Shown in pieces: positions 8,313-8,956 of a stretch of DNA of 36,826 bases. The notes under the pieces were generated by a model. It was not told the origin of the DNA. It worked only from the letters and a program-made list of their open reading frames with translations, and made no database searches. The DNA comes from Gammaproteobacteria bacterium (lineage in GTDB: Bacteria; Pseudomonadota; Gammaproteobacteria; Chromatiales; Chromatiaceae), in contig QNZQ01000157.1 of the NCBI GenBank assembly GCA_003972985.1, positions 1 to 36,826 of the forward strand. The letters are read 5' to 3'. The position numbers and the translations under genes are program-made. Each line of letters starts with the position of its first letter. The stretch's first letter is position 1.

Positions 8313-8741
8313 TCAGATGTCGAGGGGCTTGGGCTGCTGTGCCTGGTGGGGATGCTCCGGTCCTGCATAGACCTTGAGCTTGCGGAACATGGCGCGTCCC
8401 AGCGGATTGCGCGGCAGCATGCCCTTGACGGCATTCTGCAGCACCCGCTCGGGTGCCTTTTCCAGCAGTTTTCCGAGGCTGATGGACTTGAGGTTACCCA
8501 CGTAACCGGTATGGTGGTGGTACATCTTGTCCTGCAGCTTGTTGCCGGTGACGCGGAGCTTTTCCGCGTTGACCACCACGATGTAGTCGCCGGTGTCCAC
8601 GTGGGGCGTATAGATGGGCTTGTGCTTGCCCTTGAGGCGACGTGCAATCTCGCTGGCCATGCGGCCCAGCGTCTTGCCTTCTGCATCGATGATGTACCAG
8701 TCCCGGCGTACTTCAGCCGGCTTTGCGCTTACCGTTGTCAT
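8313..8741 (-). CDS. rplM: 50S ribosomal protein L13
   Basis: [49 protein letters not shown]; start [14 protein letters not shown] at 8741. Confidence 0.98.
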
Positions 8742-8795: not shown

Positions 8796-8824
8796 ATATT
8801 ACCCAACTCGCGGACGACTTACAA
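8796..8824 (-). promoter_or_regulatory. Putative rplM-rpsI promoter
   Basis: Minus strand TTGTAA-17 bp-TAATAT upstream of rplM. Confidence 0.5.
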
Positions 8825-8845: not shown

Positions 8846-8875
8846 AAAAAAAAGCGCGGCAGGGGGTGCCGCGCT
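8846..8875 (-). terminator. Rho-independent terminator of the candidate sRNA
   Basis: AGCGCGGCA-CCCCC-TGCCGCGCT followed by TTTTTTT on the minus strand. Confidence 0.85.
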
Positions 8876-8950
8876 CAATAATAACCACCAAAGGAGGATG
8901 GTGTGTACTGATTTTCCAGAGTAGGGGGAGGAGGAGAGGAAAATCAGTAC
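8846..8950 (-). ncRNA. Candidate orphan sRNA with three C-rich-loop hairpins (anti-SD-like)
   Basis: Minus strand 5'-GTACTGATTTTCC-tctcctcctccccctactct-GGAAAATCAGTAC-acaCACCA-tcctcctt-TGGTG-gttattattg-AGCGCGGCA-ccccc-TGCCGCGCT-TTTTTTT. Stem 1 is 13 bp perfect, stem 2 is 5 bp, and stem 3 is a 9-bp terminator with an 8-U tract. Promoter TTGACA-17-GAGAAT sits just upstream. Confidence 0.75.
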
Positions 8951-8956
8951 ATGAGC

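Follow-up and report, generated by a model that had tools for sequence, protein, structure and literature searches.

A candidate anti-Shine-Dalgarno small RNA upstream of rplM in Gammaproteobacteria, homologous to the RF02278 RNAs and built like Neisseria NmsR

In the window (the whole stretch of 36,826 nt that was analysed), a predicted small RNA (sRNA) gene lies upstream of rplM on the minus strand. From sequence comparison we conclude that its family is homologous to the Rfam family RF02278, 'Betaproteobacteria toxic small RNA', while staying outside membership at the curated threshold. So the window sRNA would be a gammaproteobacterial branch of the RF02278 group, built like Neisseria NmsR. 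The reading we favour, with a probability of roughly 70%, is that this NmsR-like RF02278 homologue acts in trans, pairing its anti-Shine-Dalgarno (anti-SD) segments with the strong Shine-Dalgarno (SD) sequences of a subset of mRNAs and lowering protein synthesis. A riboregulator targeting ribosome-binding sites had been proposed in the original prediction, and it is the best-supported reading, though neither as an orphan nor as an RNA outside the known kinds. The features are listed below; the neighbours, recognised from sequence knowledge, we take to be rplM and rpsI.

8985-8957, minus strand: putative sigma-70-type promoter of the sRNA, TTGACA (8985-8980), 17-nt spacer, GAGAAT (8962-8957); consensus scan, 10/12 matches
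8846..8951, minus strand: predicted sRNA transcript, ~106 nt; fold z = -9.9, genus conservation, covariance model match of 63.8 bits
8951-8938 with 8917-8904, minus strand: hairpin 1, perfect 14-bp stem; pyrimidine-rich loop of 20 nt at 8937-8918 (UCUCCUCCUCCCCCUACUCU)
8903-8899 with 8890-8886, minus strand: hairpin 2, 5 bp, CACCA/UGGUG; loop UCCUCCUU (8898-8891)
8852..8876, minus strand: intrinsic terminator stem-loop, 10 bp; loop CCCCC, U run to 8846
8796..8824, minus strand: probable separate rplM promoter, TTGTAA (8824-8819), 17 nt, TAATAT (8801-8796)
8313..8741, minus strand: rplM (ribosomal protein L13), downstream neighbour; open reading frame (ORF), translation and synteny
8286-7894, minus strand: rpsI, after rplM; ORF

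The predicted RNA folds far more stably than its dinucleotide shuffles, with a minimum free energy of -44.2 kcal/mol against -16.3 +/- 2.8 (z = -9.9; 0/200 shuffles as low). Folding confirmed hairpin 2 with its anti-SD loop and the perfect stem of hairpin 1, which came out at 14 bp and not at the 13 bp described originally. A U/A-rich spacer separates hairpin 2 from the GC-rich terminator. The CCCCC loop and U tract of the latter were found as described, but the alignments did not bear out a C-rich terminator loop as a conserved feature of the family. The hairpin 1 loop, which holds CUCCUCCUCCCCC, the first anti-SD of the window subtype, is predicted to be 95% unpaired; for the hairpin 2 loop region the figure is 78%. 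The window sRNA shows what marks base-pairing sRNAs of the anti-SD kind, namely accessible anti-SD segments (by computation) in a discrete, conserved RNA gene. Consensus scanning also recovered the terminator and the TTGACA-17-GAGAAT promoter proposed earlier, the latter in a region with two promoter-like sites against 0.3 expected from shuffles, and the position of its -10 element places the probable start near 8951. Its conservation shows the element to be more than a product of chance.

Within the genus, the element was present by DNA search in 13/14 genomes, one copy being truncated at a contig end (L014); in one genome (G012) the search found the second copy only. The genus alignment consisted of the 12 uncut orthologues and the window. 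All 13 sequences retain the C-rich hairpin 1 loop, which the original prediction expected homologues to keep, together with the ACCAUCCUCCUUUGGUGG core. Since MAFFT misplaced gaps within hairpin 1 of L008-L011, this hairpin was assessed in 21 relatives on an alignment that had been fitted to the structure. In it, 10/12 pairs of the main hairpin 1 helix showed two-sided changes and 99.1% of cells were paired, counts that lean towards the structure as a result of the fitting. The whole-structure signal in this alignment was above that of shuffled and slid controls. All pair counts are alignment-dependent. Compensatory changes among homologues, on which the original prediction had staked itself, were thus present in hairpin 1 and in the terminator, but the core hairpin showed no covariation.

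The window sRNA is one of two copies in its own genome; a DNA search located the paralogue at G000:C44:8196-8266, between queA and tgt. For the wider family, an initial scan with a 28-nt pattern gave zero matches in total, and a 21-base core pattern gave at least 119 stretches in genome contigs among the matches listed. These belonged mostly to sulfur-oxidising lineages (Thiocapsa, Thiothrix, Thioalkalivibrio, Sedimenticola, Beggiatoa, Thiomargarita), with Arenicella and a Gallionellaceae MAG also among the matches listed. As these copies were chosen by the exact core, the invariance of the core among them is partly built in. The matches of a covariance model of the core hairpin and terminator (R1, 44 sequences) were selected without the exact core. 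The model showed two-sided changes in 9/9 terminator pairs and matched 115 of the 275 sampled genomes of Gammaproteobacteria (in the GTDB sense) at E <= 0.001. The weakest matches were unsafe, one of them (L242) being PrrF, so it was set aside and 40 bits was taken as the working floor. Having a second copy in its own genome and related copies in about 40% of the sampled Gammaproteobacteria, the sRNA is not the orphan it was first called, and this spread, in an sRNA belonging to no Rfam family at the curated score, makes it of interest. Adjoining copies, two or three in tandem, were seen at L112:5783-6024, L225, L238, L233, G300:C3 and G202:C27.

The conserved part of the family is CUCCUCCA-UCCUCC-UUUGGUGG, i.e. 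a linear and a looped anti-SD. Most members have a hairpin 1 of variable sequence, a linker with ACUCCU, the core and then the terminator, and those with a promoter match mostly carry the type TTGAC-17-GAxAxT. Hairpin 2 is the near-invariant core of the family. In most members the core reads CCAUCCUCCUUUGGUGG, with two paired arms flanking a U-U mismatch. Among the R1 matches of at least 40 bits, nearly all keep CCUCC in the hairpin 2 loop, with varying flanks and loop length. In three loci of the rplM niche (L234, L236 and L237) hairpin 2 was rebuilt with a different stem, and the CCUCC loop was altered or lost, the upstream UCC(UCC) stretch being kept. According to the genus alignment, the window subtype has lost the linear anti-SD of the linker and carries CUCCUCCUCCCC in the hairpin 1 loop instead, which we read as a probable move of the first anti-SD from the linker to this loop. 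An A directly precedes the core in 13/153 copies, equalling the number of aligned genus sequences. The original picture of three hairpins with C-rich loops is true of the window subtype only; one conserved anti-SD is the hairpin 2 loop, and members other than this subtype have a second one in the linker before it. C-rich hairpin 1 loops with runs of C also occurred in copies from beyond the genus (L119, L139, L147, L151, L049), in which the linker anti-SD is intact.

At gathering scores, the only Rfam match in the whole window was 6S RNA (RF00013; 804-990, plus strand, 101.9 bits), and no family reached its cut-off at the sRNA locus. Sixty loci were fetched for context, of which 40 were scanned with Rfam at gathering scores and 20 were outside the scan. 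By our own count, R1 matches of at least 40 bits are present in 33 of the 40, and at the gathering score not one of these 33 copies matched an sRNA family. Literature searches for the core sequence (in U or T form) and for an sRNA 'upstream of rplM' found no paper. The earlier statement that no recognised sRNA matches thus stands at the gathering score, but below it the RNA is a homologue of RF02278 and so of a known kind. The window copy and its own second copy scored 24.4 and 33.1 bits with the RF02278 model, both below its gathering score of 50, as were all 33 scanned copies of at least 40 R1 bits. Across the 275 genomes this model matched 81, mostly at R1 places; only two matches were over the cut-off, neither of them in the window's family. 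One family member (L015) aligns to RF02278 end to end with 37.5 bits (E 1.5e-6, 141-base search), and a copy in genome G160, just under the cut-off at 48.7 bits, sits upstream of rplM. By contrast, L241 scored 33.7 bits with R1 and 54.5 bits with RF02278 and is a true RF02278 member. The end-to-end alignment and the mostly shared places argue for homology, at scores under the cut-off.

The likeness to the Burkholderia double-hairpin RNAs of RF02278 (ncS03/ncS05/ncS27/ncS62) extends to the linear CUCCUCCA, an anti-SD hairpin ending in UGG, the terminator and the presence of several copies per genome. Linear CUCCUCCA, anti-SD hairpin and terminator occur together in most family members and in the own second copy; the window copy is without the linear anti-SD. 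The window family differs by an added 5' hairpin and by its places near rplM or between queA and tgt, niches that neither of the two over-cut-off members shows. The likeness of the Burkholderia RNAs to NmsR has already been pointed out (PMC5688073). Neisseria NmsRA/NmsRB (NgncR_162/163; RF02877 for NmsRb) share the plan of three stem-loops with the third as terminator, and they also come as two sibling copies, in their case in tandem (PMC5362039). Their pyrimidine-rich anti-SDs, one in the linker that joins stem-loop 1 to stem-loop 2 and one in the loop of stem-loop 2 (PMC5362039), are shared with most family members, whereas the window subtype has its first anti-SD in the hairpin 1 loop and none in the linker. 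With the RF02877 model, L015 reached 22.9 bits (gathering score 52) and the window copy gave no match at E <= 1.

Two further kinds of sRNA were compared. Of the Rfam models, alphaproteobacterial ar14 ('cuckoo' type, RF02344) scored the window copy highest, with 36.4 bits under a cut-off of 58.8. The two share a hairpin 1 loop with CUCCUCCUCCC, but such a loop is confined to the window subtype and is absent from the other copy in the same genome. Xanthomonas sX13, compared by description and not by sequence, is likewise a structured sRNA, and with its C-rich loops it represses mRNAs that have G-rich motifs close to the start codon (PMC3771888); its loop motifs are 4C/5C and not the UCCUCC core.

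In the reading we favour, the sRNA would be transcribed from its own promoter as an RNA of about 106 nt and would act in trans. Its CUCCUCCUCCCCC in the hairpin 1 loop and UCCUCCUU in the hairpin 2 loop would pair with the strong SDs of some mRNAs, and this pairing would block 30S binding, so that synthesis of the target proteins would fall and metabolism might be retuned or growth slowed. Computed duplexes with ideal SDs ranged from -8 to -18 kcal/mol. In Burkholderia cenocepacia, the CU-rich stretches of the RF02278 RNAs match ribosome-binding sites; overexpression of ncS27 attenuates growth and its silencing has the opposite effect, and growth inhibition on overexpression of the family is also reported for E. 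coli (PMC5688073). NmsR and NgncR_162/163 repress their targets through the linker and the stem-loop 2 loop, as backed by reporters, and the growth impairment of E. coli by NmsRA is abolished by mutation of its anti-SDs (PMC5362039, PMC9973317). We infer transcription, base pairing, targets and growth effect for the window sRNA; given the homology to RF02278 and the NmsR-like plan, the same mode is the most likely here. A search of 15 genus genomes for near-complete complements of the core returned mainly the sRNA genes themselves. Complementarity at start regions, scored by run length over about 20% of the genome with crude ORF calls, was not above that of shuffled cores. No target is therefore claimed.

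The toxicity of the relatives in E. coli (PMC5362039; PMC5688073) would also be expected of a general titrator, i.e. an RNA that imitates the 3' end of 16S rRNA, competes for many SDs and acts as a broad brake instead of a selective regulator. The loop UCCUCCUU does match the 16S anti-SD, and for some ideal SDs the computed duplex is similar in strength to that of the 16S tail. However, the canonical UAAGGAGGUGA pairs far better with the 16S tail than with the hairpin 2 loop (computed, -17.3 vs -10.7), and the NmsR targets form a defined set (PMC5362039, PMC9973317). We regard a general titrator as unlikely.

The genomic niches bear on a different explanation, in which the element would act in cis, as the leader or attenuator of rplM-rpsI, with the terminator governing read-through and the short RNA as a by-product. 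Niche genes were assigned by tblastn with the window ORFs and with cluster representatives that had been named from sequence knowledge. Among 52 inspected R1 loci of at least 40 bits, a non-random sample spread over the score range, 40 were followed by rplM at 91-485 nt on the same strand, which speaks for an attenuator, and 21 of these 40 had a 2Fe-2S ferredoxin-like gene upstream. The site beside rplM-rpsI, remarked on in the original prediction, is thus conserved across relatives, so the placement is not incidental; the shared orientation may nevertheless be mere inheritance. The consensus scan revealed no strong rplM promoter in the window: the TTGTAA-17-TAATAT element is absent from its list and agrees with the consensus in only 8/12 positions by hand count. 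Most genus orthologues, on the other hand, have CTTG(A/T)A-17-TATTAT and a separate conserved leader between the sRNA terminator and rplM, which argues against a simple attenuator. Moreover, same-core copies occupy the queA-tgt interval on the strand opposite to that of the two genes (29 of the named set, 20 of loci L001-L050), where a leader role is impossible, and some genomes hold copies in tandem. An attenuator was demoted in view of the queA-tgt copies and of the promoter-like element with its leader, and we consider it distinctly improbable. The rplM leader itself (8824-8742, minus strand) and its genus orthologues share CGCGCCCTTTCGTGGA...TATGGCGA...GGGAACGAGAC, with a GC-rich stretch after the -10 element.

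The core hairpin is nearly fixed in both sequence and pairing, beyond the needs of pairing alone, and in lacking covariation it would also fit a protein-binding site. The RNA could then act by decoying an RNA-binding protein specific for pyrimidine-rich loops, and not by base pairing. A fixed core is equally expected, however, if its 5' arm is itself an anti-SD, and the known relatives work by base pairing (PMC5362039, PMC9973317, PMC5688073). The protein sponge of the original prediction found no support in the analysis, and we judge a decoy very unlikely. Intergenic regions often hold intrinsic terminators, but the idea that the element is no functional RNA gene, only a strong terminator beside a hairpin formed by chance, is hardly credible against the compensatory changes in hairpin 1, the conserved promoter, the near-invariant 21-nt core and the second conserved place.

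The second copies carry a feature of their own. In all 14 fetched from the genus (L016, L031-L042, L044; own genome L031:1533), TTGA-N6-TCAA stands at -71 to -75 from the core, and within 150 nt none of the remaining copies of the 153 has it. By hand count, the centre of this box precedes the predicted start by about 41.5 nt (42.5 in some), which is the position of a class II activator as far as sequence can tell. The own genome encodes Crp/FNR-type HTH proteins (six matches, five over the cut-off), and the second copy is probably controlled by an activator, presumably of the FNR/CRP type. One could further speculate, as a rather doubtful extension, that the rplM-anchored sRNA is a class-wide initiation brake at strong SDs, balancing ribosome supply and translation, to which its FNR-linked sisters would add anaerobic input.

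Through this family, the toxic sRNAs of Burkholderia and, in terms of structure, the Neisseria NmsRs become part of a broader group that has two conserved niches in the genome. Selective and global control of translation by anti-SD RNAs could be tested against each other in this concrete family, and cultivated sulfur bacteria among the carriers of the core sequence (Thiocapsa, Thiothrix) could be used for such tests. As a minor observation, many copies (L189, L196, L201, L206, L208, L211, L215, L217, L218, L220 and others) are followed by a tRNA gene at a distance of roughly 1-1.5 kb.
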